Shown here piece after piece: positions 3,547-27,700 of a DNA stretch of 33,035 nt. Numbering within the stretch: position 1 is the stretch's first letter; each line of letters begins with the position of its first letter. The DNA is taken from positions 1 to 33,035 of the forward strand of contig JAHEYC010000038.1 of assembly GCA_023251775.1 (NCBI GenBank), written 5' to 3'. Under the pieces are notes generated by a model. That model saw only the letters and a program-made list of their open reading frames with translations. It ran no database searches and was not told the DNA's origin. A program made the translations under genes and the position numbers. This DNA is from Sphingobacteriaceae bacterium. GTDB lineage: Bacteria; Bacteroidota; Bacteroidia; B-17B0; Aurantibacillaceae.

Positions 3547-5739
3547 CTAATTACCGATTTTCAAAATTATAAACTCCGTCCGTCTATTCATTGCATGTTC
3601 TTCTTCGCTACAAGGCGATGGCTTTGGACCTTCGCAAGCGCAATTGTTCAGTAATTTACTTTCGCCATAGCCTTTGCCTGAGATGCGCGCAGGGTTAGTG
3701 ATCTTTTGTTTAATATAATCCACACTGGCTTTAGCGCGTTTGTCAGAGAGTTTTAAATTGGCTGCTTTTCCACTTCTGCAATCCGTATGAGCACCCAACT
3801 CCACCACCATATCAGGGTTCTCGTTCATGATCTTTACAATCTTATCTAATTCCTTGGCGGCATCAGGCCTGATATTAAATTTAGCAAGGTCAAAATAAAT
3901 GTTTCCTAAATTACTCATCTTAGCTAAGTCGCCACCCAATTCCACTTTTTCCAAATTCACATTCATCATCTCATGAATTTTTTGATCGCCGGGTGTTTTT
4001 AATTTCCAACGGAACTCAATAGTTTTTGTTACGTAACCTGCTTTAGCAATTTCAATGGTATACCTCAACGAATCGTTCAATTTATTATCAAACAATCCCA
4101 TTTTAAACATACCCGATGCCGGCGTAACACTGCTGGTTACTTTAGCGTAGTACTCACTTGTAAATGAAACCTTCACATTTTCTAAAGGTATTTTGGTTTT
4201 GTTATCGGTAATAAGTGCTAGTAATGTAAATTCAGGAATTTTATCCAATACAAGATCAACGCCAACCGTATATTCGGGCACAGCCGTTGTAAAACGTTTA
4301 GCGTGTTCGTAATAATCCTCCTTTTTTGCTTCAACACGGTATTGCCCTGTATTACTCACAAACAAAACATAGGTTCCATCTTTTTTTGTACACACCTTAT
4401 CCAATATCTTTCCAAATCTACTGGTTAAAAATACAGCCGCTTCGTGTATAGGATTTCCTTCTGCATCGGTAATAGTTCCCTTGATCATTTTTCCAAAATC
4501 AAATGGTTTCATTAAATCAAACCCATACACATCATCATTTCCTTTGCCTCCTTCTCTGTTAGAAGAAAAATAGCCATGTTTTTTTTCTGCATCTAATATC
4601 ATTCCAAAATCATCCTTGGTAGTATTAGCAGGCGTTCCTATATTTTGTGCTTTGCTAAAAAAATCATCAAAACTTTGTGCCGCAAAAATATCTAGGTCGC
4701 CCATGCCCGGTCTGCCGTTGGATGAAAAGAAAAATAAACCGCTTGCATGCATAAAAGGGAACATCTCATCGCCTTCGGTATTGATATTGTCTCCTAAATT
4801 TTGCGGCCTACTCCAATTACCATTACTATTGCGTGTGCTTTTATAAATATCTGTTTTGCCATAACCTCCGGGCATATCGCTCGCAAAATATAACGTATTT
4901 CCATCGGCACTTAAACAAGGATGTCCGCACGAATAATTATCGCTATTAAATGATAATGCTTTTTGCTCTACCCATTCCCCTTTTTCGTATTTGCCTTCGT
5001 AAAGTTTTATGCAACGAACCCCCTCTTTATTTTTTCCGCTATAATTATCGGAGGAATATATCATATAGTTTCCCTTAGCATTAAAACTTACCGGACCATC
5101 ATGATACTTTTTATTATACGCCGGAAATTTTCGAACGCTTTTTAATTCCTTTTTATCGCTGATCTTGCAAGTGTACATATCTACATAAGGCAAACGGTTG
5201 CCATTCCAAATATGTGTTAAGTAACTTAATTTTTGGCGCGATGAAACCAGCATCAATTTATTTTTGTAATACGAAATGCCAAAATCTTGTTGTTGCGAGT
5301 TTCCTGCGATGTTCCATACAACAAATTGCTTTTTATCCTTTAAAAGATCCTCATAATATACTTTGTTCAATTCAAAAAGGTCAACGCGACTATCTTCCGG
5401 TGCCATTTTCCCAAAATCATCCATCACTTTTGCGGCTTCTTTGTATTTGGCATTCACTTTTAAGATCTGCGCATAATTATAAACGTCTTCTGCGCTGTGT
5501 TTTTCATCATTAGCCAGATCTGCCCACACTTTTTCGGCTTCCACATAATTTCCAATACGTTTATAACTATCGGCCAATTCGCGTAACACTTCCATGTCTT
5601 CGATGTTTGCCGGTGTCATGGATGCAACTTTATAATAATCAAAATCGGCGTACGCTTTTTTTACTTTCTTAGGACTAACCTGAGATAAAAGCGCAAACGG
5701 GAAAACTAAAAGGCAATATATGCGGAAAAGTTTTTGCAT
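3547..5739 (-). CDS. PorE-like OmpA family protein (TPR, WD40-like propeller, carboxypeptidase-regulatory and OmpA domains)
   Basis: 730 residues with a Sec signal (MQKLFRIYCLLVFPFALLSQ) and no lipobox Cys. Domains in order: TPR-like helices about 25-130; PD40/WD40-like propeller about 140-405, with typical blades such as SCGHPCLSADGNTLYFASD and the GGYGKTDIYKS and GGKGNDDVYGF turns; a carboxypeptidase-regulatory-like fold about 415-500 (GTITDAEGNPIHEAAVFL); a second beta-sandwich to about 600; and an OmpA-like peptidoglycan-binding domain about 610-730 with IYFDLAKFNIRPDA, HTDCRSG and NRRTEF. This is the architecture of PorE, which ties the type IX secretion machinery to the cell wall. It follows the PorP/SprF gene after 3 bases and closes the operon begun at 10901. 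It is likely the cell-wall anchor of a locus-specific secretion partner rather than the housekeeping PorE; that distinction is inference. Confidence 0.92.
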   Translation of the reverse strand: MQKLFRIYCLLVFPFALLSQVSPKKVKKAYADFDYYKVASMTPANIEDMEVLRELADSYKRIGNYVEAEKVWADLANDEKHSAEDVYNYAQILKVNAKYKEAAKVMDDFGKMAPEDSRVDLFELNKVYYEDLLKDKKQFVVWNIAGNSQQQDFGISYYKNKLMLVSSRQKLSYLTHIWNGNRLPYVDMYTCKISDKKELKSVRKFPAYNKKYHDGPVSFNAKGNYMIYSSDNYSGKNKEGVRCIKLYEGKYEKGEWVEQKALSFNSDNYSCGHPCLSADGNTLYFASDMPGGYGKTDIYKSTRNSNGNWSRPQNLGDNINTEGDEMFPFMHASGLFFFSSNGRPGMGDLDIFAAQSFDDFFSKAQNIGTPANTTKDDFGMILDAEKKHGYFSSNREGGKGNDDVYGFDLMKPFDFGKMIKGTITDAEGNPIHEAAVFLTSRFGKILDKVCTKKDGTYVLFVSNTGQYRVEAKKEDYYEHAKRFTTAVPEYTVGVDLVLDKIPEFTLLALITDNKTKIPLENVKVSFTSEYYAKVTSSVTPASGMFKMGLFDNKLNDSLRYTIEIAKAGYVTKTIEFRWKLKTPGDQKIHEMMNVNLEKVELGGDLAKMSNLGNIYFDLAKFNIRPDAAKELDKIVKIMNENPDMVVELGAHTDCRSGKAANLKLSDKRAKASVDYIKQKITNPARISGKGYGESKLLNNCACEGPKPSPCSEEEHAMNRRTEFIILKIGN

Positions 5740-5742
5740 AGA

Positions 5743-6654
5743 TCAAAAATGCCTCGTTGATTTAATTTTTGTTTCGGGTTTCACAAAAAAGTCGTAGCGC
5801 AAACAAATTTCGTGACTTCCTTTATTATAACGGAATGTTGTATTTGGGAACGACCAATCGAAGGAATACCCAATATATAATTGATCCGTTGCCTGAAATC
5901 CGGTTAAAACTCCAACAGCATCGGCCGAGCGATACATCAAACCAATATTAAAATTATCATCAAATACCAAAGTGCCCGTTATATCTCCTTCAATGGGCGC
6001 ACCGGGAGTTACTTTTAAAAATGCTGTTGGTTTAAAGGTGATATCACGTGTAAATTCGTAAGCATATCCTGCAATAACATAATAATGCCTTTGCTCGCGC
6101 GATAAAAGTGAGGCCGACTTGTTTAATTTATTTTGCAACATCTTCGGACAAGAAATTCCAACGTAATAGGTTTTACTAAAATAATACATTCCAAATCCGG
6201 CGTTCGGTAAAACACTTTTGATATCCGTTGCAAAAGCAGCATCGCTTTGTGTGATGAGTGATAAAGTTGAAACGCTGTTTCTGTAAATATTCACTAAGCC
6301 TTTTAATCCAAACGAAAGTTTAGATGTTTTATTCAAACGAACATGATACGCATAATCGGCCGAGATCCATGTGCTCTTCATAACGCCCAACTGATCACTG
6401 ATCACATTTAATCCCGCACCCGATTTTCCCAATACAAGTGGGGCATGCATAGAGAAAGATGTTGTTTTTGGTCTACCATCAAAATTTAACCATTGCGCTC
6501 TGTGAATTCCCGTAAATGTCATTAGATCGCGCGTTCCAGCATACGCAGGATTTATCCATAATGTATTAAAGGCATAATGCGTGAACATAGGGTCTTGCTG
6601 CGCTTTTGTTTGCAAGCACAGTATTAATAGAGCTATGGAAATTATTTTTTTCAC
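5743..6654 (-). CDS. PorP/SprF family type IX secretion system membrane protein
   Basis: 303 residues. Signal peptide MKKIISIALLILCLQTKAQ, then the family hallmark QQDPMFTHYAFNTLWINPAYAG, TGIHRAQWLNFDGRP and alternating beta strands of an outer-membrane barrel ending in an aromatic-rich strand. SprF-type proteins are needed to export and attach large cargo with type B C-terminal domains, such as SprB in Flavobacterium, and are usually encoded next to their cargo, as here. The start codon is GTG: it shares its G with the TAG stop of the cargo gene (TAGTG on the minus strand), which indicates translational coupling. The start is supported because the signal peptide begins exactly there. Its stop lies 3 bases before the PorE-like gene. 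Confidence 0.95.
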   Translation of the reverse strand: MKKIISIALLILCLQTKAQQDPMFTHYAFNTLWINPAYAGTRDLMTFTGIHRAQWLNFDGRPKTTSFSMHAPLVLGKSGAGLNVISDQLGVMKSTWISADYAYHVRLNKTSKLSFGLKGLVNIYRNSVSTLSLITQSDAAFATDIKSVLPNAGFGMYYFSKTYYVGISCPKMLQNKLNKSASLLSREQRHYYVIAGYAYEFTRDITFKPTAFLKVTPGAPIEGDITGTLVFDDNFNIGLMYRSADAVGVLTGFQATDQLYIGYSFDWSFPNTTFRYNKGSHEICLRYDFFVKPETKIKSTRHF

Positions 6655-9600
6655 TATTTCGTTAATCCTCTGTTTAAATACAAGAAACCCGTATATGGTT
6701 TTGTTTTATTGTTCAGATCCAAAATATAATAATAGGTTCCTTCCGGTAATTTATTTCCGCCGATCTCAATTCCAATTTCAGTTGTTCCGTCCCATGTATT
6801 CGCATAACCTTTCTTTTTATACACCACATTTCCCCAACGATTAATTATTTGTAATTCATTATCCGGGAAGAAACGAATTCCTCTTATTTCGAACAGATCA
6901 TTCACACCATCATCATTGGGCGAAAATCCTTGCGGAATAAAGAAATCAAATTCAACAACAAATACCGTTGGTACACCTTCTCCCGGATCAGAAGGATTTC
7001 CATTTCCATTTGGGTCAGGATCACTTCCTGTTGTTGAAACATCACTTCCGGTATATCCGCCCGAAGGTAAATTACCCGCACTCGCAATTGCTGTATTTGT
7101 AAATGATACTAATCCGTTTGGCGTGAACTTCACCATCACTTTAATTGTATCCGCTTGTCCCGGCAACAACGAACTCGTACTTGCGAACAATAAATTCGTA
7201 TTACTTCCTTGTCCGGTAAAAGAGGGATCAACCGTAACAATACTATTCATACTCACAGGAGGCGGAACAACCGTAAATGTGGAAGGCGCAGGAAATGTAT
7301 TTGCTAAATTATCGTTGATCTGTACATTATATACCGGGTATGTTGCATGATTTTTGACGACAAAACTTAACTCCACATAATAATCAATAAAATTATCGTT
7401 CTTGGTTACTTTTGCTTTTTTAGCCAAACCAATTGGAACACTAACCGAACAATTATTTACCGTCAATAAAACAGTTGCTGAACCCGGACAACCAAAAATA
7501 TTTACACTGCTTACAGTGTACACAGTGGTAGTTGTTGCAAATAAACTAACCGTATTTCCCGGCATTGCACCAGGATTCCATATATATGCTGTGCCGCCCG
7601 TTGCAGTTAATGTAACATTATCTCCCGCGCAACAAATAGAAGGCGTGACGGATGCAATAATTGTTGGATTAGGATTTACTTGTAAATAAACCGCAGCGGA
7701 ATCTTTGCAACCAATATTATCGGTAGCAACAACGGTATAAAAACCGGAAGCAGTTGGCGTGACGACTATCACCGCACCATTTTGATTTCCGGGATGCCAA
7801 GTATACGTAACTCCACCTCCGGCTATTAATGAGCTGGAATTACCCGCGCAAATAACAGATGGAATTGCGATCGCAGAAATATTTGGCCCAACAATTACCG
7901 TGACGACTGTCCAATTTGTACAACCAAATGTATTGGTTCCAACAACCGTGTATTGCGTTGTGACGGATGGTTGGACGACGATCATTGATCCTGTGAGTAT
8001 CGGGAAAAACGGGAACCACGTATATGTGAGTGCACCAAAGGCCGTAAGCGTACTTGTACCTCCTCTACAAATTTGTGTTGGGTTAGGAATTGCCGTTAAT
8101 GTTGGAATTGGATCCACAATAACTTGCACCGTTGTTGTATCGGCACAACCATTGATGTTATAACCAACAACTGTATACGTTGTTGTTACTGTTGGCTGAA
8201 CAGGAACAGGATTTTGCGAAGTGTTTAGCGGAGGCAACCAATAAAATGTAAGCGCTCCCCATGCTTGCAACCAACTTGTTTGTCCCAAACAAATTCGCGT
8301 TGGCGTTGCAATTGCTTGCACTGTTGGAATTGGCCAAACAATTACTGTAACAAATGTACTGGAAATACATCCCGTTGAATGTGTACCATTTACTTGATAC
8401 AATGTTGACACAGTTGGACAGACGACAATTGTTGGACTCACAATGTTCTGCGGGACCCACGTATAAGAAACGCCACCATAGGCGGTGAGTGTACTACATT
8501 CACCAATACAAATTTGCGAAGGGAATGCACTGATGGTTGGAACGAATACAGGAAGATTTACAACTGTATAATTTGTACAACCATTAATATCTGATCCAAC
8601 AACCGTGTATTGCTGAGGAAAAACGCCGATGACCGTTTGTGTTTGTCCAACTAATGGGCCCGGATACCAAGTATAAGAAATAGCTCCCGATGCATTTAAT
8701 GTTCCTGTTCCGCCCGGACAAATTAATGTTGGTGCAGCTGTTGCATTTAATGTTGGAATTGGATTTACAATTAATTGCACGGTTGTACTTCCAATACATA
8801 CTGTAATATTTCCAACCACTGTGTAAATTGTTGAAACCGGCGGAGACACTGTTGGTGTTGGTCCTGTCATGTTTCCGGGAAACCATGTATACGTATTTGC
8901 TCCATTCGCGCTTAATGTTCCAACCGCGCCCAAACAAATTGCCGTAGGAATTGCAACCGCAGTCATCACCACTTCAATAACAGTGAATGCGGGCGCTGCT
9001 GTAAAATTATCTATGGTATAACACTCGGGAGAACCGGATGAAACTGTTCCACTAAAAACGCCAATGTTAGTTGCTGTAATTACACCGGTTAAAATAATTG
9101 AAATAGGAGAATTTGGTGCCACACTTGTAATTGACCAATTTGGTGCCGAATAAGTTCCGGTACTTACACTTGATGATGTAAATGTTACACCTGATGGTTG
9201 CGGTAAATTAACTACAACATTAAGTGCAGGATTACAAGCAGAATTATTTATGGTTACGGTGTATGATTTTTGTTGACCTAAACATAATGGTGGTCCGTTA
9301 CCCGCAATTGAAATAGAAAGATTTACGGGAGCAGAGTAAGGAATGTAAGGCAAATTATTTACAATGGTTCCCGATGCACCTTTTGTTGCGCCGTTTGGAA
9401 TAAATTCGGTGAGTCCGCTTGAAGTTGTTGTTCCATTAGTTCCACCAAACATTGTAGTTAATACACTTGTGTTTGTGGTTTGAATATATCCGCCGCCACC
9501 ACCACCGCCCGGACCTTCGGCTTCATTAGTTGTAATTAATTGATCGCCGCCATTTCCGCCATTTGCAGTAACTGTTACACCGGTAATAGAACTACTAGAA

Positions 9601-10901
9601 AATAAAGTTATGGCACCACCACCGCCACCACCGCCCGGTGCATCGGTATGATTATTAATTGTTGGATTAGCGTCATTTCCTTTTGCAGTTATTAAACCTG
9701 TTCCGCTAATACTTCCATCGGTGATAAAATAAATTATTCCACCGCCTCTTGCACCGCCAACATTATCGCCATTATCGCCATGGCCTGCGCCTCCGCCACC
9801 GCCCATAAATAATCGTGTATTCGAACTATAATCTAAAGGACGTCCACCAAATCCTCCAATATTATTTCTGTTGTCGCCCGCCCATGCAGCATCACCCGGA
9901 CCATTTACTTGTGCGTTCGCATTATTAAATGATTGCGAATATCCGCCGCGTCCGCCACCCGGCGAAGTACTTGTTGCAAAACTTGCCGATTCTAAATTCC
10001 ATGCGGTGGTCCATGTTGCAAATAAATTATCAGGAATTCCTGTTCCGGTATATCCAATTAAATTTCCTGCGTTCGATCCACCACCACCACCGGCGTTATC
10101 CGAGTTTCCACCACCGCCACCATTAGCGGGTGCACCGCGCGAATATCTTCCTGATAAAAAATCATAATCGGTTTGCGTGCCTGCAATACCTTCGCCTTTT
10201 TCTCCGCCCGAACTACTAAGCGATGAAACATAATTTGTAACGTTAACTCCTGCCCCTGCAACAACAGCTGCTCCACCTCTATATCCTTGTCCTTGCGTTG
10301 TAACAGTTCCGTTAATGATCACCGCACCATTCGTTTCAATTGCAACTACACCACCGGTACCTGCAACTTGTGCCCATGGTCGTGATGTAAGTGAAGCCGC
10401 ATTATTAATAGTTAATGTAGTGAATCGCGGAATGCGAACAACCTGAACACGCTGCGTTCCAAAAACAAAATAATTTTTATTGAGTTTACATCCTCCTGCT
10501 AAAGTGATGGTATTATTATTGATGGTACCAACTTCAAATAATTCGTAATCGCCAACACCATTATAGCTTGTAATGTTTCCGTAAGTGGATGCATTAGCAG
10601 TATTCATGGAAGAGCCTTGCATTTTGATGATCATTAAAAGATCACACGATTCTAAACTATTGGCACCATAACAATCATTAATAGCTCCTGGAATTGCAGG
10701 AGCTTCCAGATCAGTGATATTTCCTACCACCACAAAACTACCACCTGCAAATGCACTTTGTGCCAAAGGCGAATAGCGATTATAAATAGCGCCAACACCA
10801 TTAACAATTGCGGCACCGTGTTTTCCTTTTTGAGAAAATAGCGTTAATGAAAAAGCTAACTGCAGAATTAAAACCAGTATTTGCTTTTTTTTATTACTCA
10901 T
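6654..10901 (-). CDS. Giant secreted adhesin-like protein with seven Ig-like repeats and gliding-type (type B/CHU_C) C-terminal domain
   Basis: 1415 residues. Signal peptide (MSNKKKQILVLILQLAFSLTLFS), a beta-rich N-terminal region (about 30-225), a very glycine-rich region (about 225-475), a DUF11-like domain (about 525-640), seven repeats of about 70-75 residues (about 645-1150) each with IC.G....L.A.G...YTW.PG and a T.YTVVG.N..GC step, a second DUF11-like domain (about 1155-1275), a Gly/Asp/Pro linker (SDPDPNGNGNPSDPGEG), and a C-terminal domain opening FFIPQGFSPNDDGVNDLFEI and ending in a short strand. That ending is the gliding-motility-associated C-terminal domain used as a type IX secretion signal. 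The product should be exported to the cell surface. The SprF-like and PorE-like genes follow immediately. Repeat content suggests adhesion, but no ligand-binding motif is visible. Confidence 0.93.
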   Translation of the reverse strand: MSNKKKQILVLILQLAFSLTLFSQKGKHGAAIVNGVGAIYNRYSPLAQSAFAGGSFVVVGNITDLEAPAIPGAINDCYGANSLESCDLLMIIKMQGSSMNTANASTYGNITSYNGVGDYELFEVGTINNNTITLAGGCKLNKNYFVFGTQRVQVVRIPRFTTLTINNAASLTSRPWAQVAGTGGVVAIETNGAVIINGTVTTQGQGYRGGAAVVAGAGVNVTNYVSSLSSSGGEKGEGIAGTQTDYDFLSGRYSRGAPANGGGGGNSDNAGGGGGSNAGNLIGYTGTGIPDNLFATWTTAWNLESASFATSTSPGGGRGGYSQSFNNANAQVNGPGDAAWAGDNRNNIGGFGGRPLDYSSNTRLFMGGGGGAGHGDNGDNVGGARGGGIIYFITDGSISGTGLITAKGNDANPTINNHTDAPGGGGGGGAITLFSSSSITGVTVTANGGNGGDQLITTNEAEGPGGGGGGGYIQTTNTSVLTTMFGGTNGTTTSSGLTEFIPNGATKGASGTIVNNLPYIPYSAPVNLSISIAGNGPPLCLGQQKSYTVTINNSACNPALNVVVNLPQPSGVTFTSSSVSTGTYSAPNWSITSVAPNSPISIILTGVITATNIGVFSGTVSSGSPECYTIDNFTAAPAFTVIEVVMTAVAIPTAICLGAVGTLSANGANTYTWFPGNMTGPTPTVSPPVSTIYTVVGNITVCIGSTTVQLIVNPIPTLNATAAPTLICPGGTGTLNASGAISYTWYPGPLVGQTQTVIGVFPQQYTVVGSDINGCTNYTVVNLPVFVPTISAFPSQICIGECSTLTAYGGVSYTWVPQNIVSPTIVVCPTVSTLYQVNGTHSTGCISSTFVTVIVWPIPTVQAIATPTRICLGQTSWLQAWGALTFYWLPPLNTSQNPVPVQPTVTTTYTVVGYNINGCADTTTVQVIVDPIPTLTAIPNPTQICRGGTSTLTAFGALTYTWFPFFPILTGSMIVVQPSVTTQYTVVGTNTFGCTNWTVVTVIVGPNISAIAIPSVICAGNSSSLIAGGGVTYTWHPGNQNGAVIVVTPTASGFYTVVATDNIGCKDSAAVYLQVNPNPTIIASVTPSICCAGDNVTLTATGGTAYIWNPGAMPGNTVSLFATTTTVYTVSSVNIFGCPGSATVLLTVNNCSVSVPIGLAKKAKVTKNDNFIDYYVELSFVVKNHATYPVYNVQINDNLANTFPAPSTFTVVPPPVSMNSIVTVDPSFTGQGSNTNLLFASTSSLLPGQADTIKVMVKFTPNGLVSFTNTAIASAGNLPSGGYTGSDVSTTGSDPDPNGNGNPSDPGEGVPTVFVVEFDFFIPQGFSPNDDGVNDLFEIRGIRFFPDNELQIINRWGNVVYKKKGYANTWDGTTEIGIEIGGNKLPEGTYYYILDLNNKTKPYTGFLYLNRGLTK
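7450..8970 (-). repeat. Seven tandem Ig-like coding repeats of about 70-75 codons
   Basis: Within the adhesin gene the segments beginning ICLGAVGTL, ICPGGTGTL, ICIGECSTL, ICLGQTSWL, ICRGGTSTL, ICAGNSSSL and ICCAGDNVTL recur at 205-225 base intervals. The two Cys of each unit, one near the start (IC) and one near the end (GC), could form a disulphide. Identity is visible at DNA level too: the 11-mer GTTGGAATTGG (plus strand) occurs at 8101-8111, 8323-8333 and 8752-8762 at the unit boundary that encodes NPIPT-like linkers, which suggests fairly recent duplication or gene conversion. Confidence 0.85.
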
Positions 10902-11038: not shown

Positions 11039-12406
11039 TCAATCGTTCTCGAAGGGGGTATACGTTAATTTGAAAGTAGGTTTATAGAGTGCGCTCGCAG
11101 AACCTCCAATAACAACGCGTTGTGATCTATCATCACGTCGCACGGTGTAGGTGCGGTCGCCATCAGCTACAACCAAATAAAATCCCCAATTTTTTTTAGT
11201 ACCATTCATAATGGCTTGAACATCGCGTGAGATATTGAAAACATATTCTTGATTATCGAAATCGTAGGATCCGCCATAGTATCTCAAAAAATCGGTAGGA
11301 CTAATTTGATCAAAAGTAAATATTTCGCGACTTAACGAATCCATGGCTAGAACGGCCAATTTTAATGGCGCTCCATATTTTCCATCAGCACCATTGAGGC
11401 CTTGATCAATTTTGAAACGGAGCTGAGCTTGGTTAACCGAAATTTTATGTTGAGAAACATAATTCTTAAGGAATGGGATCTCAAATTTTACTTTCACGCC
11501 TCCTAATCCTTGTAAGAATAATCCTTGCGAACCTTTTGCGGAATCGCCTTGTAATTGTTGCGTTAATAAATTATGCGCACCGCTTGAGTGATCGTGTTTA
11601 AATTCGTTGAATCGCGCCACATTTTCACCGTTGAATGGGAATTTGTAAACTTTTGTTTGTTTGCTTGCTGATATTTCTCCTTCTTGATAATACATATAAA
11701 ATCCGCTTAGCGCATTATCCAGATCAAGTTTTGCAATGACACCTTGCGATCCAACAGGATTTAAATTTGTTGACTTGCATGTGATATAAAATCCTTTGTA
11801 AGTGTTTTGAAACGTTGCATTATCAGTTAGTGTGCTGCTGAGAATAGCTGAAGCATAGGTACTGTTCATTGGAATGCGAACAACAAACAAACCATTGATG
11901 ATATCAAATGAACACGTTCTGCTTGCCAATAAATTACCTTTGTTATACCAATTTTTTGGTGTTGAGTAATGCACTTGGGAAGAAGAGAGATTTTGATTCA
12001 TTTCGAATACTTCGTAAGTTAACGGACATTGGTAATCTCCAAGAAAATCTAGACTTTTTACAGCAAGTACAAGTTCGGAAGAAACAAGATTTGCGTTGGG
12101 AAATGAAACAAAAATTGTATTGATCGAGAATTTTGTGTACAAGCTCACATCAGTTCTTCCAAACACGGGATCTTGATTTGATCCCAAGAATTTTGTGGCA
12201 TCATTGAACGATACAACACTATCCACATTTATGGTATGTGCGATAATGGTTGAAGTATCCGAAAAAGTTCCTTTTAATACATCGCTTTGATCTTGCGCAC
12301 TGGCATTCAAAATATCTGTATCTTTTTTACAAGAAACAGAGAGTAACGACATCACGAAAACTAATATCGCAAATGGGAATAAGAATGTATGTGTTCGGTT
12401 CTTCAA
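11039..12406 (-). CDS. DUF4270 family lipoprotein
   Basis: 455 residues. Lipoprotein signal MKNRTHTFLFPFAILVFVMSLLSVSC with a Cys at 26 followed by KKD. The body matches the DUF4270 layout: an early D-x-S-x-x-x-A-H/T-strand region (GTFSDTSTIIAHTINVDSV), DPVFGRTDVSLYTKF near residue 80-94, a long middle of beta strands, and the closing VVIGGSASALYKPTFKLTYTPF. Function of the family is unknown; it is predicted to face the outer membrane. In many Bacteroidota, DUF4270, a short glycogen-synthase-like gene and panC lie together, exactly as here, so the synteny supports the call. A 10-base-pair terminator hairpin at 12465-12488 separates it from the synthase-like gene, so it is probably transcribed from its own promoter. 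Confidence 0.9.
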   Translation of the reverse strand: MKNRTHTFLFPFAILVFVMSLLSVSCKKDTDILNASAQDQSDVLKGTFSDTSTIIAHTINVDSVVSFNDATKFLGSNQDPVFGRTDVSLYTKFSINTIFVSFPNANLVSSELVLAVKSLDFLGDYQCPLTYEVFEMNQNLSSSQVHYSTPKNWYNKGNLLASRTCSFDIINGLFVVRIPMNSTYASAILSSTLTDNATFQNTYKGFYITCKSTNLNPVGSQGVIAKLDLDNALSGFYMYYQEGEISASKQTKVYKFPFNGENVARFNEFKHDHSSGAHNLLTQQLQGDSAKGSQGLFLQGLGGVKVKFEIPFLKNYVSQHKISVNQAQLRFKIDQGLNGADGKYGAPLKLAVLAMDSLSREIFTFDQISPTDFLRYYGGSYDFDNQEYVFNISRDVQAIMNGTKKNWGFYLVVADGDRTYTVRRDDRSQRVVIGGSASALYKPTFKLTYTPFEND

Positions 12407-13413: not shown

Positions 13414-13421
13414 TAGCTTTG
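13414..13421 (+). promoter_or_regulatory. -7 element of the panC promoter
   Basis: TAGCTTTG matches TAnnTTTG exactly. Transcription would begin near 13428, leaving only about six bases before the panC ATG at 13434, so the transcript would be almost leaderless. No good -33 TTTG is seen at the right distance, so the box is weaker than its divergent neighbour. Confidence 0.5.
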
Positions 13422-13433
13422 CGGGGCCATTAT

Positions 13434-14279
13434 ATGTTAATTTTCGAGAGAAATAGCGAATTAAAAATCTATTTGGATAAAATAAGAGCAGAAAGCAGAC
13501 AAATTGGCTTTGTTCCCACTATGGGAGCACTTCATGCGGGACATATTTCTTTGATCAATGAAAGTAAGAAACAAGAACTATTTACGGTGTGCAGCATCTT
13601 TGTGAATCCAACACAATTCAACGATAAAAAAGATCTGGAAAATTATCCGCGCACTCCCGAAAAAGATATTGAAATGCTAAGGCAAAGTGGCTGCGATGCA
13701 CTGTTCATGCCAAATGCAGAGGAGATCTATCCAAAAGAAGATACGCGTGTTTTTAATTTTGGAGAATTGGATACACTACTTGAAGGAGCTCTTCGTCCGG
13801 GACATTTTAACGGCGTTGCCAAAGTAGTGAGCATTTTATTTGATAAAATTAAACCTAATGTTGCTTTTTTTGGAAGTAAGGACTACCAACAAGTGATGGT
13901 GATAAAAGCTTTGGTAAAACAATCGAATTTGCCCGTGAAGATCGTTGCTTGTCCTATTATTCGCGAGGCGGACGGACTTGCCATGAGTTCGCGCAATATG
14001 CGTTTAACCAAAGAGGAAAGAGAAGCCGCTAAACTTATTCCTTTGCTTTTAAACGAATCTAAGCTACTTTTTAAGGCTCGTAAACCTATTTCGGAAATAA
14101 AGGGTTTTATAGCCTCAAAATTGGCCCAAAAACCCACCTATAAGCTCGATTATTTCGAAATTTGCGACCCTCAAGATCTCCATATTTTAACCGATAAAAA
14201 TGAGGTAAAACAGGGTATCGCCTTGATAGCCTGTTTTGTAGGAAATATTAGGCTCATCGACAATCTTCTATTGGATTGA
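13434..14279 (+). CDS. panC: Pantothenate synthetase (pantoate-beta-alanine ligase)
   Basis: 281 residues from the ATG at 13434; a TTG 15 bases upstream overlaps the -7 box and is rejected. The enzyme joins pantoate and beta-alanine with ATP in the cytosol, the last step to pantothenate and hence coenzyme A. Signature motifs in order: FVPTMGALHAGHISLI (residues 27-41, the HxGH nucleotide-binding motif), FVNPTQFNDKKDLENYPR (56-73), LRPGHFNGVAKVVSILF, FFGSKDYQQVMVI, and MSSRNMRL. Length is normal for the family. It is divergent from the glycogen-synthase-like gene with only about 90 bases between their starts, so the two may share control. panD and panB are not in the window. Confidence 0.97.
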   Translation: MLIFERNSELKIYLDKIRAESRQIGFVPTMGALHAGHISLINESKKQELFTVCSIFVNPTQFNDKKDLENYPRTPEKDIEMLRQSGCDALFMPNAEEIYPKEDTRVFNFGELDTLLEGALRPGHFNGVAKVVSILFDKIKPNVAFFGSKDYQQVMVIKALVKQSNLPVKIVACPIIREADGLAMSSRNMRLTKEEREAAKLIPLLLNESKLLFKARKPISEIKGFIASKLAQKPTYKLDYFEICDPQDLHILTDKNEVKQGIALIACFVGNIRLIDNLLLD

Positions 14280-14290
14280 TTTTTAACAGT

Positions 14291-14387
14291 TTGGCTCGAT
14301 TTTTGCATGTTTTAAGTATTAAAATTAATTAAATTTATTAACCCAACTATCTATATGCGTTATGCGTATTAGTTAGTATCGAGCCAA
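14291..14387 (+). promoter_or_regulatory. Upstream region of the ECF sigma operon with inverted and direct repeats
   Basis: A perfect 10-base inverted repeat brackets the leader: TTGGCTCGAT at 14291-14300 and ATCGAGCCAA at 14378-14387, the second ending five bases before the sigma factor start. Between them a 7-base word is repeated in tandem (TATGCGT at 14354-14360 and 14361-14367). These are plausible operator or auto-regulatory sites, or a hairpin occluding translation start. No TAnnTTTG box of the primary sigma was seen, which would fit transcription by the encoded sigma itself. Confidence 0.45.
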
Positions 14388-14392
14388 GATTA

Positions 14393-14953
14393 ATGATAAT
14401 TCAGCCAAACCTGATAAAGGATTGTATCAACCGAGACCGTCGGGCTGAATATGAATTGTACAAAACATTATATAGCTATTTGATGAGTATTTGTTATCGC
14501 TACACCCATCAAAAAGAATTGGCCGAAGAAATGTTGAACATGGGTTATTTGAAGATCCTCACCAATCTTACAAAATACGACCCGCAACTCCCGTTCAAAG
14601 CGTGGGTGCGAAGGATCATGGTGAACACATTGATAGATGAATATCGCAAGAACAAGAATTTAAAGAGTAAGATAAGTTATGTGGAAGAGTATTATGATAC
14701 CGAATCGTTTTCGGACACGAACTCTGCACTAAAAAAATTGAATGCAAAAGAAATTCTGCAAATGATAGAGAAGTTACCAAAAGCGAGCGGACAAGTATTT
14801 AACTTGTTTGCTATTGATGGTTACAGTCATAAAGAAATTGCAGCAATGCTTGAGATAAGTGAAGGTACCAGTAAATGGCATTTGAATTATGCTCGACAAA
14901 AATTAAAAGAAATGATCGGTGAAACAGTATTAACAACAGCAAAAGCCTCATAA
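14393..14953 (+). CDS. ECF-type RNA polymerase sigma factor
   Basis: 186 residues. Region 2 spans about 20-90 (YKTLYSYLMSICYRYT, AEEMLNMGYLKI, then the PFKAWVRRIMVNTLIDEYRK segment that contacts the -10 element), a short linker follows, and region 4 spans about 118-176 (MIEKLPKASGQVFNLFAIDGYSHKEIAAML, then ISEGTSKWHLNYARQKLKE as recognition helix). There is no region 1 or 3, as expected for the extracytoplasmic-function group. It replaces the primary sigma on RNA polymerase to express a small regulon. The next gene starts one base after its stop, so the pair is co-translated. Upstream repeats at 14291-14387 may mediate its own control. The usual small FecR- or ZAS-type anti-sigma gene is absent; the neighbour at 14955 may take that part. 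Confidence 0.95.
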   Translation: MIIQPNLIKDCINRDRRAEYELYKTLYSYLMSICYRYTHQKELAEEMLNMGYLKILTNLTKYDPQLPFKAWVRRIMVNTLIDEYRKNKNLKSKISYVEEYYDTESFSDTNSALKKLNAKEILQMIEKLPKASGQVFNLFAIDGYSHKEIAAMLEISEGTSKWHLNYARQKLKEMIGETVLTTAKAS

Positions 14954-14954
14954 A

Positions 14955-16490
14955 ATGAAAAAGTTTGACAATTTTGACGAATCGGTAAAGAACAAATTGG
15001 ATGGAACGAACTTCCCGTTCAATGAAGCCAATTGGGAAAAAATGAGCCAGATGATCGACGCGTCTCGTCCGGCCAAAAAACCATTCGGTAATTTACCGTT
15101 AATTTCATCCATCGTAATAGGAAGCGCGCTTCTTATTGGAACGGCTTGGTATTTTGCAACGCAAACTTCAGATGCAAAAGAAGTGGCTCAAAACAATACT
15201 CCTGTTTCGATAATTGAAACAAACAACGCGAACGTAACTAACGGAAACACAACTTTAGTTTCTGATAATTCAAACAGCAAGTCATCTTCAACTAATTCTT
15301 CTACAAATTTAAAAGTAACAACTACCAATAATTCTAATTCATCTTCTTCTACTAATGAAAGAGATGAGTTAACAGGTAAGAATGAGAATAACACCGTTGT
15401 GAATTCTTCTTCTTCTTCAACTAAAAATGTTACTGTTAAACGATCAACTACAATGCCTGCGAATGAGGTTGTTGCTACTTCGAAAGGTTCGTCGGATGTA
15501 AAAATAAGTGCAGTTGAGAATAACAACGATCAAAAAGACATTGTTGGCGAAACTCAAAATGCTCATGAAAAAACCACAGCTAATAATTCTGCTAATTATG
15601 CCTCGAATACAGATCTTACAAAAACAACTGACAACTCTAAAAGCAATATCAAACCTGTGTTAGAAAAGGTAGCGGAGCAACAAGCTAATCAAAAAGCGGC
15701 GGGCGATGACAGAAATATTGCTGTAAATGATGTAGAGGAAAATGATCTGATAGCTTTACCTAGCACTACGACAAATTTAGGTCAAACTGCTGATGCAATT
15801 GCCGCTGCAAATTTAAAAACAGCTGTTGAAGAGAAAAAAGTGACGGAATATGTTCGTATCAAACATCACACCATGAATATCGAAGCAGGTGCAAGCAATT
15901 CGTTTGGATGGCAAGTGAACAATACACGTAATGGAAATAATATCAGTCCGCTTTTAGGAATCAATTACATGTACAATATCGATTCGCGTTCATCATTGTT
16001 AGTTGGTCTTCAGTATAACGGACTTGCGAACTTAGGCGAAGCTAAAGCAAACTTTAGCGTTACTACATATGGTTTTGGAATAAATAACGAAGTAACAACT
16101 TACAAATTGAATGATCTTCATTATGCGGTGATGCCATTGAAATTCATTTACAAAATAAACAAAAGCAATGCGTTTGGTGTAGGATTTAATTTGATGTACT
16201 TAATGAATACCCGCACTCAAATAATCAATACAACTACTTTAGAAAGCAATGTTACTACAACACATAGTCGTTACGAATATGGTTATGGATTTGATCAGTT
16301 GAATACGTTCAATGGTCAGTTAGCATTGAATTATAATTATAATATCTCTAAAACACTTGGATTGAATTTTGAAGTGAATAAATCGCTGGGTAATGTAGTG
16401 AAGGATTACAAATACTTTGGCATTAAGAACCAAAGCAGTGCTCCTGCCGCCGTTAAACTTAGCTTAACCTATACCCTGTTCAATAAATAA
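14955..16490 (+). CDS. Membrane-anchored protein with long linker and outer-membrane beta-barrel domain; possible anti-sigma/sensor
   Basis: 511 residues in four parts. Residues 1-45 are cytoplasmic, with a motif FDESVKNKLDGTNFPFNEAN followed by WEKMSQMID, seen at the N-terminus of similar proteins beside ECF sigma genes. Residues 47-68 form one membrane helix (PLISSIVIGSALLIGTAWYF). Residues about 70-305 are a Ser/Thr/Asn-rich low-complexity linker. Residues about 305-511 alternate as eight or so amphipathic strands (MNIEAGASNSFGW, SSLLVGLQYNGL, NAFGVGFNLMYLMN, TLGLNFEVNKSLG) ending LSLTYTLFNK, the pattern of the PF13568-like outer-membrane barrel. An inner-membrane helix and an outer-membrane barrel in one chain would make it span the envelope. 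It is inserted between a sigma factor and a lipoprotein in one operon, so I infer control of that sigma. The domain calls are by eye. Confidence 0.8.
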   Translation: MKKFDNFDESVKNKLDGTNFPFNEANWEKMSQMIDASRPAKKPFGNLPLISSIVIGSALLIGTAWYFATQTSDAKEVAQNNTPVSIIETNNANVTNGNTTLVSDNSNSKSSSTNSSTNLKVTTTNNSNSSSSTNERDELTGKNENNTVVNSSSSSTKNVTVKRSTTMPANEVVATSKGSSDVKISAVENNNDQKDIVGETQNAHEKTTANNSANYASNTDLTKTTDNSKSNIKPVLEKVAEQQANQKAAGDDRNIAVNDVEENDLIALPSTTTNLGQTADAIAAANLKTAVEEKKVTEYVRIKHHTMNIEAGASNSFGWQVNNTRNGNNISPLLGINYMYNIDSRSSLLVGLQYNGLANLGEAKANFSVTTYGFGINNEVTTYKLNDLHYAVMPLKFIYKINKSNAFGVGFNLMYLMNTRTQIINTTTLESNVTTTHSRYEYGYGFDQLNTFNGQLALNYNYNISKTLGLNFEVNKSLGNVVKDYKYFGIKNQSSAPAAVKLSLTYTLFNK

Positions 16491-16492
16491 AA

Positions 16493-17656
16493 ATGAAAAA
16501 GTTACTGATCATAGTTTGCACTTTTGTACTTGTAATTTCTTCTTGTAAAAAGAAGGAATTCCCCGAGAACGTTTCTCAAGAACCGGCGTTTTATATTTCG
16601 GCTAATGTTGATGGCACACCTGTAAGTTTAAGAGCCGGTGCATTTGGCTATTATATGTATTCGAGCTATGTGCAAGACACAAATGGCATGTATAGTTTTA
16701 TTGCCGAGGTTAAACCGGCTAATTGCGGGAACGCTTGCGCTAATTCTTTACGAATTGAATTGAACGATGATCAACCAAGTGTAAGCAACGGAACTTCAAA
16801 CATCAATAGTTCCATTAAAGTCGCCGATTATCAGTTTGCGAATACAGCTACAGTTGCTCCTACGCTTGTTGGATATGCAGTTAGTTTTAAATCTATCTAT
16901 AATAAACCAACTGCTAATGCTTCTTATTTATGGAATTTTGATGATGCCGGAAGTTTATCTGTTGATGCAAATCCTACGCATACCTATTCAACCGCAGGAG
17001 TTAAAAATGTGAATCTTGGAATTTCCGAAACTACCAGTTCAGGTATGACCTTCATGGAGAACCCAATTAAAGTTACTATAAGTCCTGTTGCCGTTAAAAC
17101 TCGAATTTTAACGCCGGCGGTTAATGGCAATACTATTTCATTTTACAATTCAACAAATGGCGGAACAGGAACTCCACCAGCGTATTCATATAAGTGGGAT
17201 TTTGGAGATTACAGTCCGTTTTCTACTTCTCCAAATCCAAGTCATACTTATAGCGTAGGTGGTATGTATAAGGTTAAGTTGGCCGTTTGGGATCAATACA
17301 ATGATACGGCAAAATATAATTTCAATATCAACACGACAAGCAGCAATTTACCTGCAACAAACTTTAGCGTTGTAAGTACTGTGCCTTTATATTATACAAC
17401 GGCAACAAATCTATTATCTAAAGTTAAGATCACTTACGTTGATGCAAGTGGTAAAGTATACTCTTCTCATTTACAATCACAAGTTGGAGCAGGAAATATA
17501 TTCCATATTACCTCTGTAGAGGAATACAGAGCAAACGAAAAAGGTCAAGCCACCAAAAAACTGAAGATCAATTTCGATTGTAAATTATATAACGGTACTA
17601 CCAGCGCGGTTACTTTAACTAATGGTGAGGCAGTAATTGCGGTTGCCTACAAATAA
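16493..17656 (+). CDS. PKD-domain lipoprotein
   Basis: 387 residues. Lipoprotein signal MKKLLIIVCTFVLVISSC with Cys at 18 followed by KKKE. After a short N-terminal beta region (PAFYISANVDGTPVSLRAG), two PKD domains follow: about 125-195 with SYLWNFDDAG and NPTHTYSTAGVKNVNL, and about 204-280 with YSYKWDFGDYSPF and NPSHTYSVGGMYKVKL. A C-terminal beta-rich region of about 100 residues follows. PKD domains are Ig-like folds used in surface protein-protein or glycan contacts. It begins two bases after the barrel protein gene and is the last gene of the sigma operon, so it may be its ligand, partner or target. The stop codon touches the stop of the opposite-strand gene at 17657 with no spacer. 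Confidence 0.9.
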   Translation: MKKLLIIVCTFVLVISSCKKKEFPENVSQEPAFYISANVDGTPVSLRAGAFGYYMYSSYVQDTNGMYSFIAEVKPANCGNACANSLRIELNDDQPSVSNGTSNINSSIKVADYQFANTATVAPTLVGYAVSFKSIYNKPTANASYLWNFDDAGSLSVDANPTHTYSTAGVKNVNLGISETTSSGMTFMENPIKVTISPVAVKTRILTPAVNGNTISFYNSTNGGTGTPPAYSYKWDFGDYSPFSTSPNPSHTYSVGGMYKVKLAVWDQYNDTAKYNFNINTTSSNLPATNFSVVSTVPLYYTTATNLLSKVKITYVDASGKVYSSHLQSQVGAGNIFHITSVEEYRANEKGQATKKLKINFDCKLYNGTTSAVTLTNGEAVIAVAYK

Positions 17657-24726: not shown

Positions 24727-27700
24727 TTAATAATTTTGTAAGTCTAAAGGACGCATTACGCCAAACCATTTAATGATCTTTTCTCCAATTATATTATCAG
24801 CGTCATCCTTGGCCTCTATGTGGAAAATGTATAATCCACTGGCGATAGGAATATTGCTTTGATTCTTAAGTTCCCAATCCCAATAAGAGATCCTTCTGGT
24901 CTTATTAATATCATCTCCTGTTTGCGCTGCAGTAGTTGTAGTTTCGCCATACGCAGGTTTTGAATACAAGGCCTCAAGCCCACTAACATCACGCTTATAT
25001 GTTTTCACTAACGTTCCATTCAAACTGAAGATCTTTATAGTACATCTATTTGGGAGATTTGTTACTCTTACACGCGTATCTAAACGTTTGTTCTCATAAC
25101 TTGAATTACCGTAGTAAGGATTTGGAACAACTTTTATTAGATCCAAAGCATTTTTAGCTACATCCTTATCACCATACAATGCCGCCAATTCTTTTGTACT
25201 GAAACTATACATTGGAAAATTGTTATTTACAACTCCTGTTGTTTTAATATTAGAAGGCAATTGAGTTTGACTTGTTACTGCAAATAAACGATTAACTCCA
25301 ACAGAATATGTTGCACTTAAAAGGTTATTGTTGGTCCAGTTCTGTGATGTTGTTCTCATCATTCCTGAATAACCATAACGATAAGGTTTGCTAACATTGA
25401 TCTGAATTCTTACATCACAAGGCATATCCTTTGGATTCTTAAAGGTGTATCCTGAAGCGGTCATTGGCATACTTACCCACATGATATCTCTTTCAATACC
25501 TGCAAAACCCGAAAGACGAGCTCCATTTAATACGCTCAAACCCGATGATCTTACAAGGCCAAAATATTTAGAAAGCTGGTTATATACTTTTGCTCCACCA
25601 TCGTATGCACCTGCACCGTATGGCTCATCTTGTAAAGTTGCAAAATCAATAAGAGTTGGATTGTTTGCTACATCCACATCACCTTTACCTTCAACAGAAT
25701 TACCAAACACATATACAAAGTGTTTTCCGCCGAACGTATAAGAATAAGGGAAGTTGGTATTTGATGTTGGATTCCACATCATATCATCACCATTATTTTC
25801 TTTTTGGTAACTATCTTCTCCAAAGGCCATGTTCAATCGCTCACCGGTTTCTATATTGATAGCATAACCAGGGAACCAACCCATGCCCATTGTTGATGTT
25901 AAAGCAGCATCAGTTGAATTGCAACCAGAAGCACCAAATGCGATACCATTTTTATCAACCGATTTCACACGTCTTGGTTCGAAGAAGAATGAATTACTGC
26001 TAGATAATTCAGAAACTTCTTGCATTTCAAGAACCGGACAACGGGTCCATTTAGATTGATCTTTTGTATACACAATAAGTACACTACTTAATTTTCGAAG
26101 ATCCGTATTTGCACCATAAGGTATAGAACCATTGTTTGTAACTGAATTGGTAATAGAAGCATCTTTAGAACTAATTGCTCCGTGATATGCCGGTCCACCA
26201 AAATTACGTGATGCGGTAACAGAATAATATCCTGCACATAATGGATAAGGCGCCCATGTTCCATCAAGGATATCGGCGAATTGTTTTTGTGGATCAACAA
26301 ACGATTCAATATCTCCGTTCGCATCTTTCGTATAATACGCGTCGATCTGTCCTGCCGTTTTGTTTGTACCCGAAAGTATCCAGTTTTGCGGTGTACCACC
26401 GTCAACATCTTTTACAGGATTTAGCCACGGTGTTGAACTGTTGGCATACGACATGCTTGCACCAAGTAAAGTTCCAACTGCAGGGCCCGAATAGTCGCTG
26501 TTAACTCCACCAAAATTAGTGAAGCTGGCCAGCTCGCCGGGATCGGAAACCTGTCCTATTTTTACAGAGAATCCTAATTCAGGGAAAAATGTTTCGTCAC
26601 CAACTTTAATTGGTTTAATTACGAATGCATACGAACTCGCTGCCGAATTACTTTGCGCCGAACTTAAGTTAGGATAATAGAATCTTGCATTTGTTTTATC
26701 ATATAACACCCAACTGATACTATCAGGATTAACGGTATTAATATTACCAATAACACTAAGTGTTGTTGTTGTTCCTGAGGTAACCGAAATTGTTTTTGTA
26801 AGTGCGTGACTGTAATCAGGTGCGCCTTTTGTTCTAAAATCAACCAAGCTGAAATTAAAATCTGCTGCTATAATTCCTAATGGATCAACCACTTTGATTG
26901 AAACAGGACCTTGTCCGTTTTCATAAGTAACTCCGGCAACAAATGTATTTGTTACGATCGCATCTTCCGAAGCTTTTGTAAGCGTTAATAAATTCCCTCC
27001 GTTACCTTGTCCTTCTAAACGAGTTACCTTAACACCGGTACCATAACTTGATTGCATTGCATTTCCGCCGTATTGGAATATAGGATTGTTAGGAATTGCA
27101 GAGGCTCTTTTTGTTTTTCTTCCTTCAAGGTAAGGACGTTTTTGTCCCAGATAGTTTGCTGTTTGAGAAGAGTTAGGAGACACATCTTCCGCATACGTTA
27201 AATAGTTATTATAAGCGTAAGCAACCGCGTAATAAAAATACGTTTTATTATTTACCAGTTTTTTATTCTCGCCATTTGCAAAAGCATCGTCGGTAACTCT
27301 AAACGTTGATACCATTCCTTTATCTTCTCCGTCAACCATTACAGTAGGCACATAACCACCAACGGCATTATTCAATAAGTGATTCACCAAACGTGAAACG
27401 CCATTTTTAACATCGCATTGGAAAACAGGAACTGCTTTTGTAATATCTTTTAGATCGGTTGAAGTTACTTTATCATCTTTTACTTGATATACAATATAAC
27501 CTTCAAAACGATAATGCTTATCAGGAGATTTGATAGCCTGAATAGTAGAAGAAGGATCGGAGCTGATAGAGATATCTTGCTCGTCGTAATCATTATTATA
27601 ATTATTGAAGTTATTGCTCAAGCCTTTTTTGTTGGTTAGGTAGAATAATAATTCTCCATCTAATTCCTGAATGGTCATATCGGGTGCCTCAGGACCATCT

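Follow-up and report, generated by a model that had tools for sequence, protein, structure and literature searches.

The stretch of DNA analysed here (33,035 nucleotides, hereafter the window) carries, at positions 14393-17656 of the forward strand, a three-gene operon encoding an ECF sigma factor, a 511-residue Dma-type protein and a PKD lipoprotein. Taken as a whole, the operon is very probably best explained as a Dma-type switch that senses the envelope, in which the sigma factor is held by a tethered barrel protein and the lipoprotein acts with the barrel. Dma anti-sigma factors were described in 2024 in gut bacteria; in these proteins, an anti-sigma domain at the N-terminus is followed by a membrane helix, then a disordered tether and finally a barrel (Pardue et al., J Bacteriol 2026, PMC13088901). 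The window protein belongs to this already published kind, being likened to it by layout and set beside Dma1 and Dma2 by description. Little is understood about outer-membrane sensing in Bacteroidota, and a covalent line between outer membrane and sigma factor would be an unusually direct way of signalling.

The operon and its genes

An earlier note had described three genes spaced by one and two bases, and the ORF coordinates agree: one base separates the sigma gene from the Dma gene, and two bases separate the latter from the lipoprotein gene (Table 1). The operon contains no receptor gene and is followed, 3′ of the lipoprotein gene, by a convergent gene. Searches of Pfam and NCBIfam assign the sigma factor to TIGR02937 (5.6e-28), PF08281 (5e-13) and PF04542 (3.2e-12), and it shares 53-88% identity with its counterparts in 26 relatives.

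Table 1. Features of the operon, in positions of the window
Feature	Position	Strand	Basis or details
ECF-type promoter, predicted	14342..14368	+	CCCAAC (14342-14347), 17-base spacer, CGTA (14365-14368)
ECF sigma factor, regions 2 and 4	14393..14953	+	186 aa; TIGR02937, PF08281, PF04542 matches
Dma-type trans-envelope anti-sigma factor	14955..16490	+	511 aa; alignment, predicted fold, layout as in PMC13088901
Cytoplasmic anti-sigma domain (predicted), residues 1-45	14955..15089	+	Alignment, AlphaFold2, homology to short sigma-adjacent proteins
Inner-membrane helix, residues 47-69	15093..15161	+	AlphaFold2 and hydropathy
Disordered S/T/N-rich periplasmic tether, residues 70-304	15162..15866	+	AlphaFold2, composition
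Outer-membrane barrel, probably 8 strands, residues 305-511	15867..16487	+	AlphaFold2, Foldseek, VIA-align
Lipoprotein	16493..17656	+	387 aa; Cys18 codon 16544-16546
Lipoprotein core, N part, about residues 19-120 (approximate limits)	16547..16852	+	Kept in PKD-less homologues
PKD part, about residues 121-299 (approximate limits)	16853..17389	+	Two PKD_4 stretches; missing in some homologues
Lipoprotein core, C part, about residues 300-387 (approximate limits)	17390..17653	+	Alignment, relatives

Predicted layout of the Dma-type protein

The 511-residue protein has no Pfam match at E ≤ 1, FecR domain and PF13568 included, and its sole NCBIfam match, to a YSIRK lipase model (residues 50-286), scores 20 bits where the cut-off is 650. 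Its short cytoplasmic N-terminus and single membrane helix, both proposed in the earlier note, are borne out by AlphaFold2 and by hydropathy, which (19-residue windows) reaches at least 1.6 in one stretch only, within residues 43-68, with a maximum of 1.82 at 47-65. The basic stretch RPAKKP directly before the helix gives the orientation as N-terminus in. Beyond the helix, the S/T/N-rich and disordered character of the linker held up; its length, put at about 235 residues, is better given as 230-235, since the tether reaches about residue 300. AlphaFold2 gives residues 70-299 a pLDDT below 50 and no structure, and S/T/N make up 43% of them.

For residues 305-510, AlphaFold2 yields ten strand segments, the closest matches being 8-strand barrels. 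The best Foldseek matches of this model are OmpA, OmpX and Ail (E down to 2.4e-7), and VIA-align gives Z of 14.6-15.9 to OmpA, NspA and OmpW. The C-terminal domain is thus predicted to be a membrane barrel of the OmpA/OmpX/NspA type, as had been expected after residue 305, and a soluble sandwich is ruled out by the predicted fold and its structural matches. In some distant homologues, PF13568 is found at or over its gathering score (L113, L033, L035, L038 and L043) and in L055 at 0.001, Pfam having been run on ten of the 19 distant long-form loci from the Dma-profile search, plus L055.

When the window protein is modelled without its partners, its N-terminus forms helices at residues 2-17 and 24-36 (pLDDT about 70, 69-71). 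This N-terminus carries the motif FPFNEANW at residues 20-27, in which F22 and W27 are invariant across 29 aligned Dma sequences, the window included. Moreover, short proteins encoded next to sigma genes have homologous N-termini (hhalign probability 96.7, E 3.2e-10). These features suggest that residues 1-45 may bind the sigma factor. As a weak test, AlphaFold2 was given the sigma factor, Dma and lipoprotein of the relative L067 as one chain with a linker of three residues; in five rows sigma and Dma were joined, and the run gave no PAE. The N-terminus came out at pLDDT 44-63, without confident docking to sigma.

Conservation of the gene order

The order sigma-Dma-lipoprotein is kept in 29 of 30 loci, the window included. 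The lipoprotein gene lies 3′ in all 30 and the sigma gene 5′ in 29, L013 being cut by its contig before sigma; two other sigma genes are truncated. In 80 loci found by sigma alone (some genomes recur from the first set, on which the profiles were built), a Dma-like ORF comes next in 78 and the lipoprotein is present in 72, the remaining eight loci ending at contig edges before it. The two loci without a recognised Dma are L101, which is cut, and L123, where an ORF of Dma layout has no profile match. A search with the Dma profile placed an ECF sigma gene directly upstream in 26 of 29 loci. The sigma and Dma reading frames often overlap in relatives, and the gene recognised 3′ of Dma is the lipoprotein, with one ORF between in L139. 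The expectation that the three-gene order would recur elsewhere is thus confirmed in many Bacteroidota: the titles of 78 of the 80 sigma-found loci name this phylum or one of its groups, L062 and L092, from a single isolate, being titled only "bacterium". The invariance of F22 and W27, together with the kept gene order, indicates that the three-gene arrangement is more than chance.

Seven distant loci are split: the sigma gene is followed by a short protein (212-268 aa) that shares the Dma N-terminus and membrane helix, and then by a separate protein with a signal-like start. PF13568 matches this separate protein in L049 (2.1e-10). In the other six no barrel match was found for it, and a profile of these six proteins gave no match to the window family (probability 3.3). 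Across many genomes, the putative sigma-binding head thus occurs with a fused barrel, without a barrel beside a separate gene, and in tandem, so that the design looks modular.

The lipoprotein and co-divergence of the three proteins

The window lipoprotein has, by eye, a lipobox LVISSC with Cys18, a residue invariant in 29 aligned sequences. Pfam finds PKD_4 (2.3e-18) in two stretches, and a profile built over the full lipoprotein hit PDB chains in this middle part only. The PKD part is optional, in that homologues from L111, L113 and L120 (210-214 aa) lack it and keep the core. These three have no Pfam match at E ≤ 0.1, and that of L120, the only one tried, has no PDB match. The NCBIfam model Riean_0653, matches to which are present in 20 of 61 sampled genomes, gives a weak match to the window lipoprotein, at 1.2e-4 and 23 bits where the cut-off is 57. 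No family name is therefore given to the core. In a fold search with the three-part model, the matches listed were taken up by sigma and barrel and gave no information on the lipoprotein.

Distances were compared over 58 loci, numbered up to L110, in which each of the three genes is complete and no barrel is a duplicate. Partial correlations are 0.45 for N-terminus and sigma and 0.44 for barrel and lipoprotein core (p 0.001 each), against 0.04 for sigma and lipoprotein and -0.07 for N-terminus and barrel. Sigma and barrel correlate at 0.54, so shared ancestry makes up part of the distance signal. In earlier tests holding only sigma constant, the barrel-lipoprotein correlation likewise exceeded that of N-terminus and barrel. 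A lipoprotein whose divergence appears, from these sequence distances, to track that of the barrel is possibly new. It may be a physical partner of the barrel, and its constancy makes it a specific candidate for the sensing partner.

The promoter-like site

The site CCCAAC-N17-CGTA ends 24 bases 5′ of the sigma ATG. A looser form, CCAAC-N17-NGTR, picked after inspection of the sequences, occurs at exactly the same spacing in 63 of 87 distinct 200-base upstream regions (shuffle mean 0.14) and is missing from the other 24. In the window's own genome, the strict pattern has eight sites against one for the reversed-pattern control, six of them intergenic and two (L150, L151) overlapping reading frames; it is also found 5′ of other genes. 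Across 40 genomes of the genus, the excess is modest, with 215 matches against 153 reversed controls; matches outnumber controls in 24 genomes and fall below them in 13. Genome-wide matches of the pattern therefore define no regulon, and none is claimed. The site offers a starting point for a read-out.

Proposed mechanism and alternatives

It can be proposed that, at rest, residues 1-45 of the Dma-type protein would keep the ECF sigma factor bound close to the inner membrane. After a single pass through this membrane, the chain would cross the periplasm as a disordered tether and end as an outer-membrane barrel resembling OmpA. The lipoprotein would act with the barrel, probably reporting or setting its state. 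If the barrel were lost, misassembled, pulled or occupied, the N-terminal domain would free the sigma factor, the tether being either pulled or cut. The freed sigma factor may then use CCCAAC-N17-CGTA to transcribe the operon that encodes it, perhaps along with further genes. In this way, the state of the outer membrane might be sensed directly.

Cell-surface signalling through FecR and TonB-dependent receptors is common in Bacteroidota, and a plug-domain receptor is encoded at 29264-32980 of the window, on the other strand, about 12 kb from the operon. However, a classical system of this type, with a FecR-like anti-sigma factor signalled to by a separate receptor, is a scarcely credible account and was rejected: the Dma protein shows no FecR match in Pfam at E ≤ 1, the operon holds no receptor gene, relatives have the lipoprotein gene as the one recognised after Dma, and the chain carries a predicted barrel of its own. 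It is also highly improbable that the chain is an outer-membrane protein with an odd N-terminus which leaves a chance neighbour, the sigma gene, unregulated. The absence of confident docking in L067 and the lack of an annotated anti-sigma domain in Pfam and NCBIfam would fit such a reading, but the adjoining ECF sigma gene recurs in all three locus searches, often with overlapping frames, the two invariant residues are followed by a basic patch before the membrane helix, and the same N-terminus is found in short proteins beside sigma genes.

A different possibility, which we regard as unlikely, is that the chain is cut constitutively after export, leaving a conventional anti-sigma factor in one membrane and a barrel detached from it, so that nothing spans the envelope at rest. 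The predicted disorder of the tether would make it easily cut, and the seven split loci encode the N-terminal half alone, with a separate gene next. Yet the long forms measured keep both halves joined by a helix-to-barrel spacer of roughly 151-355 residues, which is hard to explain if the link is useless, and Dma1 is described with domains from the outer membrane to the cytosol (PMC13088901). The trans-envelope switch is thus preferred. That barrel and anti-sigma factor are joined in one chain, as the earlier note suggested, is supported by the predicted barrel and the conserved order, and the idea is already in print (PMC13088901).

Multi-headed chains

Among 88 distinct ORFs of at least 300 residues, seven carry two to four copies of the putative sigma-binding motif: two in L018 and L137, three in L118, L121 and L126, and four in L125 and L127. 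The initial count gave 11 ORFs without exactly one motif, comprising the cut L013, two missed by the expression (L031, L039), two with false extras (L073, L077) and six true repeats; L121 was then revised from two to three copies and L137 from one to two. By eye, L055 has four or five degenerate copies. A head period of 38 residues is shared by L118, L121, L125, L126 and L127 (four titled Flavobacteriales) and by L018, from the window's genus. This pattern suggests a fixed module that was duplicated independently. A search of 395 genomes of the phylum with the L127 multi-headed N-terminus gave one weak match (G304, E 6.5e-4), so that the form is either uncommon or has diverged beyond the reach of a single-sequence query.

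Chains with two to four motifs are possibly new. We put forward, as a tentative and rather doubtful proposal, a three-part sensor (sigma factor, tethered anti-sigma factor with OmpA-like barrel, dedicated lipoprotein) whose cytoplasmic end is multi-headed in several lineages, such that several sigma molecules could be held by a single barrel and released together. If so, an outer-membrane event might give a graded or burst-like response. The stoichiometry of these forms is open to direct measurement.

Comparison with known systems

As in FecI/FecR, an ECF sigma factor would here be under outer-membrane control, but FecI/FecR depends on a FecR-domain protein and on a TonB-dependent receptor as a protein apart, neither of which is encoded in the window operon. 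In the RcsF-OmpA-IgaA system of E. coli, an OmpA-type barrel and an outer-membrane lipoprotein are proposed to signal the state of the envelope; in that system the barrel and the regulator are distinct proteins, whereas they form one chain in the window. They are also separate in SigX-CfrX-OprF of Pseudomonas aeruginosa, where an OmpA-type barrel is likewise proposed as reporter of envelope state (PMC8999054).

The closest likeness is to the Dma proteins, as presented in PMC13088901. An N-terminal anti-sigma part, a membrane helix, a disordered tether, a C-terminal barrel and an adjoining ECF sigma gene are shared. Dma1 is reported there to control its own sigma factor, and the effect of Dma2 loss to depend on the cognate sigma factor. 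Dma3 of B. thetaiotaomicron shares the trans-envelope idea but has its sigma domain within the same chain, whereas the window sigma factor is a separate gene (PMC13088901). Unlike the systems described there, the present one comes from an uncultured Bacteroidota host related to MAGs partly titled Sphingobacteriaceae, has in third place a lipoprotein gene whose product combines a conserved core with an optional PKD part, and includes relatives with two to four sigma-binding motifs.

Gene Order and Its Conservation

The three-gene arrangement put forward in the earlier note, sigma factor, middle protein and PKD lipoprotein, is present as stated. The sigma factor matches TIGR02937 (5.6e-28, NCBIfam scan), the middle protein, called Dma below, matches zero Pfam domains at E<=1, and the third protein has Cys18 in a lipobox as well as two PKD stretches. 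Homologues of Dma were found in 56 of the 150 related genomes searched. In the 30 loci drawn from this search, the window's included, the same order, sought as a check on the operon, recurs: the lipoprotein gene follows Dma in 30/30 and the sigma gene precedes it in 29/30 (the contig cuts off locus L013; in L002 and L026 the sigma gene is truncated). Gaps in this set are mostly small (maximum 97 bases), and the sigma and Dma frames commonly share 4 to 11 bases, suggesting coupled translation.

The sigma alignment, used to scan public species genomes, gave at least 574 confirmed stretches, of which 80 loci were kept. The next ORF was recognised as Dma-like in 78/80, and the lipoprotein was recognised in 72/80, counts that share some genomes with the 30-locus set, from which the profiles were built, and thus are not independent of it. 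All 8 loci without the lipoprotein stop at a contig edge; in L139, Dma and the lipoprotein are separated by one ORF. The titles of 78 loci name Bacteroidota or a subgroup (Sphingobacteriaceae, Saprospiraceae, Flavobacteriales, Chitinophagales and Bacteroidales are represented), the remaining two only 'bacterium'.

By eye, panC also stands upstream of the operon in relatives (e.g., L004, L008, L011, L016, L022). Many relatives (L060, L063, L066, L068, L081, L082, L085 and others) have an extra ORF with PKD-like stretches after the lipoprotein gene.

Features of the operon and of other genes in the window
Position	Strand	Feature	Remarks
3547-10901	-	OmpA/PD40 protein, PorP/SprF protein, 1415-aa protein	consecutive; the last with CHU_C type IX secretion signal
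11039-12406	-	DUF4270 protein (3.9e-34)	also matches BamH (6.3e-15), far under cut-off (55 bits vs 420)
13419-14279	+	panC	directly upstream of operon
14393-14953	+	ECF sigma factor	
14955-16490	+	Dma	511 aa
16493-17656	+	PKD lipoprotein	387 aa
17656/17657		ends of lipoprotein gene and convergent 806-aa gene	on neighbouring bases
24727-29250	-	1507-aa ORF	zero Pfam matches at E<=0.001

Predicted Fold of the Middle Protein

AlphaFold2, run on a 29-row alignment, predicts two N-terminal helices (2-17 and 24-36, pLDDT about 70), a membrane helix at residues 47-69 and strands between 305 and 510 (pLDDT means over ten residues, 80-98); residues 70-299 have no predicted structure. The barrel proposed after residue 305 is borne out by this model, its top PDB matches in Foldseek being OmpA, OmpX and Ail (E down to 2.4e-7). 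VIA-align gave Z 15.9 for an OmpA model (rmsd 6.5 over 179 residues), 15.7 for NspA (2.9 over 153) and 14.9 for OmpA 1qjp (2.9 over 135). Across the 29 sequences, F22 and W27 do not vary, nor do several residues of the barrel.

Basic residues beside a membrane helix mark its cytoplasmic side (positive-inside rule). Since a basic stretch directly precedes the helix, the N-terminus is predicted to lie inside the cell. From polymer values, 230 disordered residues can extend tens of nanometres, so that the tether can amply span a periplasm.

In L067, all three genes are in the same frame, separated by single TAA codons. A joined model, with TAA read through as glycine (39 rows, AlphaFold2, no PAE), reached pTM 0.48, with sigma, barrel and lipoprotein mostly well predicted; the Dma N-terminus had pLDDT 44-63, lower than in the window model (69-71).

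Tandem Heads and Split Forms

The N-terminal motif, a predicted sigma-binding head present once in the window protein, is repeated in 7 of the 88 distinct ORFs that reach at least 300 residues, with two copies in L018 and L137, three in L118, L121 and L126, and four in L125 and L127. Spacing is exactly 38 residues in six of the seven and 35 in L137; copies within a chain are 29-69% identical. In L055, from another family, four or five degenerate copies are seen by eye and two by the motif expression. As a query against 395 genomes, the four-headed stretch gave one weak match.

A whole-protein profile run on 395 genomes of the phylum had matches in 71. An ECF sigma gene lies directly upstream in 26 of the 29 loci taken from these matches (L031-L059). 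Of the 19 long forms ten were scanned, and eight of these have PF13568 matches at E<=0.01; four reach or exceed the gathering score. The N-terminus and the membrane helix also occur in seven short forms (212-268 aa), and in all seven the next gene encodes a separate product beginning, by eye, with a signal-like stretch. Between the N-terminus of these short forms and that of the window family, profile-profile alignment gave probability 96.7 and E 3.2e-10 over residues 3-71. The separate protein of L049 is a PF13568 protein (2.1e-10). For the remaining six, Pfam gave no barrel match, and comparison of their profile with the window family was negative (probability 3.3); that they might be barrels, from their strand-like pattern, is therefore only a guess. 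That one group has the two halves in a single chain and another has them separate is what a functional link would predict, firmly so for L049 only.

Lipoprotein

The lipoprotein alignment has conserved N and C parts. L111, L113 and L120 have both without PKD (210-214 aa); the PKD part is thus dispensable, the core being what is retained in the operon. In partial correlations of distances over 58 loci, each given the other two parts, N-terminus and sigma gave 0.45 (p 0.001), barrel and lipoprotein core 0.44 (p 0.001), N-terminus and lipoprotein 0.25 (p 0.002), sigma and lipoprotein 0.04, and N-terminus and barrel -0.07. This would fit two working pairs, one per side of the envelope, yet sigma and barrel gave the highest value (0.54, p 0.001) and shared ancestry is not fully removable. 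Directly after Cys18 the window lipoprotein has KKKE; some Flavobacteriales relatives have acidic stretches there (KEDDG in L118), which resemble surface-export signals.

Promoter-Like Site

CCAAC-N17-NGTR lies upstream of sigma in 63 of 87 distinct 200-base regions, a pattern picked after reading the sequences, in regions related to one another. Other spacings from 12 to 23 occur in 0 to 7 regions and shuffles average 0.14; the single spacing of 17 is clearly preferred. A wider -10 raises the count to 68/87, the base following CCAAC always being C or T; the 24 regions without the first form belong mostly to more distant loci. The -35/-10 type is like that of known ECF promoters. The simplest reading would be autoregulation of the operon by its sigma factor.

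In the window's own genome, the strict pattern CCCAAC-N17-CGTA has 8 sites vs 1 for the reversed pattern: six stand before genes, namely this operon, an rpoD-like gene (twice), another ECF sigma gene and two other genes, and the remaining two overlap reading frames. Over 40 genomes of the genus it has 215 vs 153 for the reversed control; single matches are thus often due to chance, and a regulon from genome-wide matches was dropped.

In L152, of the same genome, an ECF sigma gene of 194 aa, distinct from that of the operon, has the pattern 62 bases ahead of it. The rpoD-like gene (contig C103; L154, L159) belongs to a set of three paralogues in the genome. Among its closest 30 loci fetched, 29 with a found start (L160-L187 included), the strict pattern lies within 200 bases upstream in 23/29 (reversed control 0), with G as the next base in 16/23, unlike in Dma operons. 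This suggests that an ECF factor drives a second RpoD.

Comparison With Known Dma Proteins

As described, the Dma kind agrees with the window operon in layout, neighbours and phylum, Dma2 likewise lies in a three-gene operon, and the effect of its mutant required its sigma factor (PMC13088901). The window protein is likely of this kind by its architecture, known Dma being compared by description. The titles and abstract openings of the papers searched gave no mention of tandem anti-sigma heads. These tandem heads are possibly new, and so are the lipoprotein core kept throughout, the conserved promoter-like site and the split relatives.
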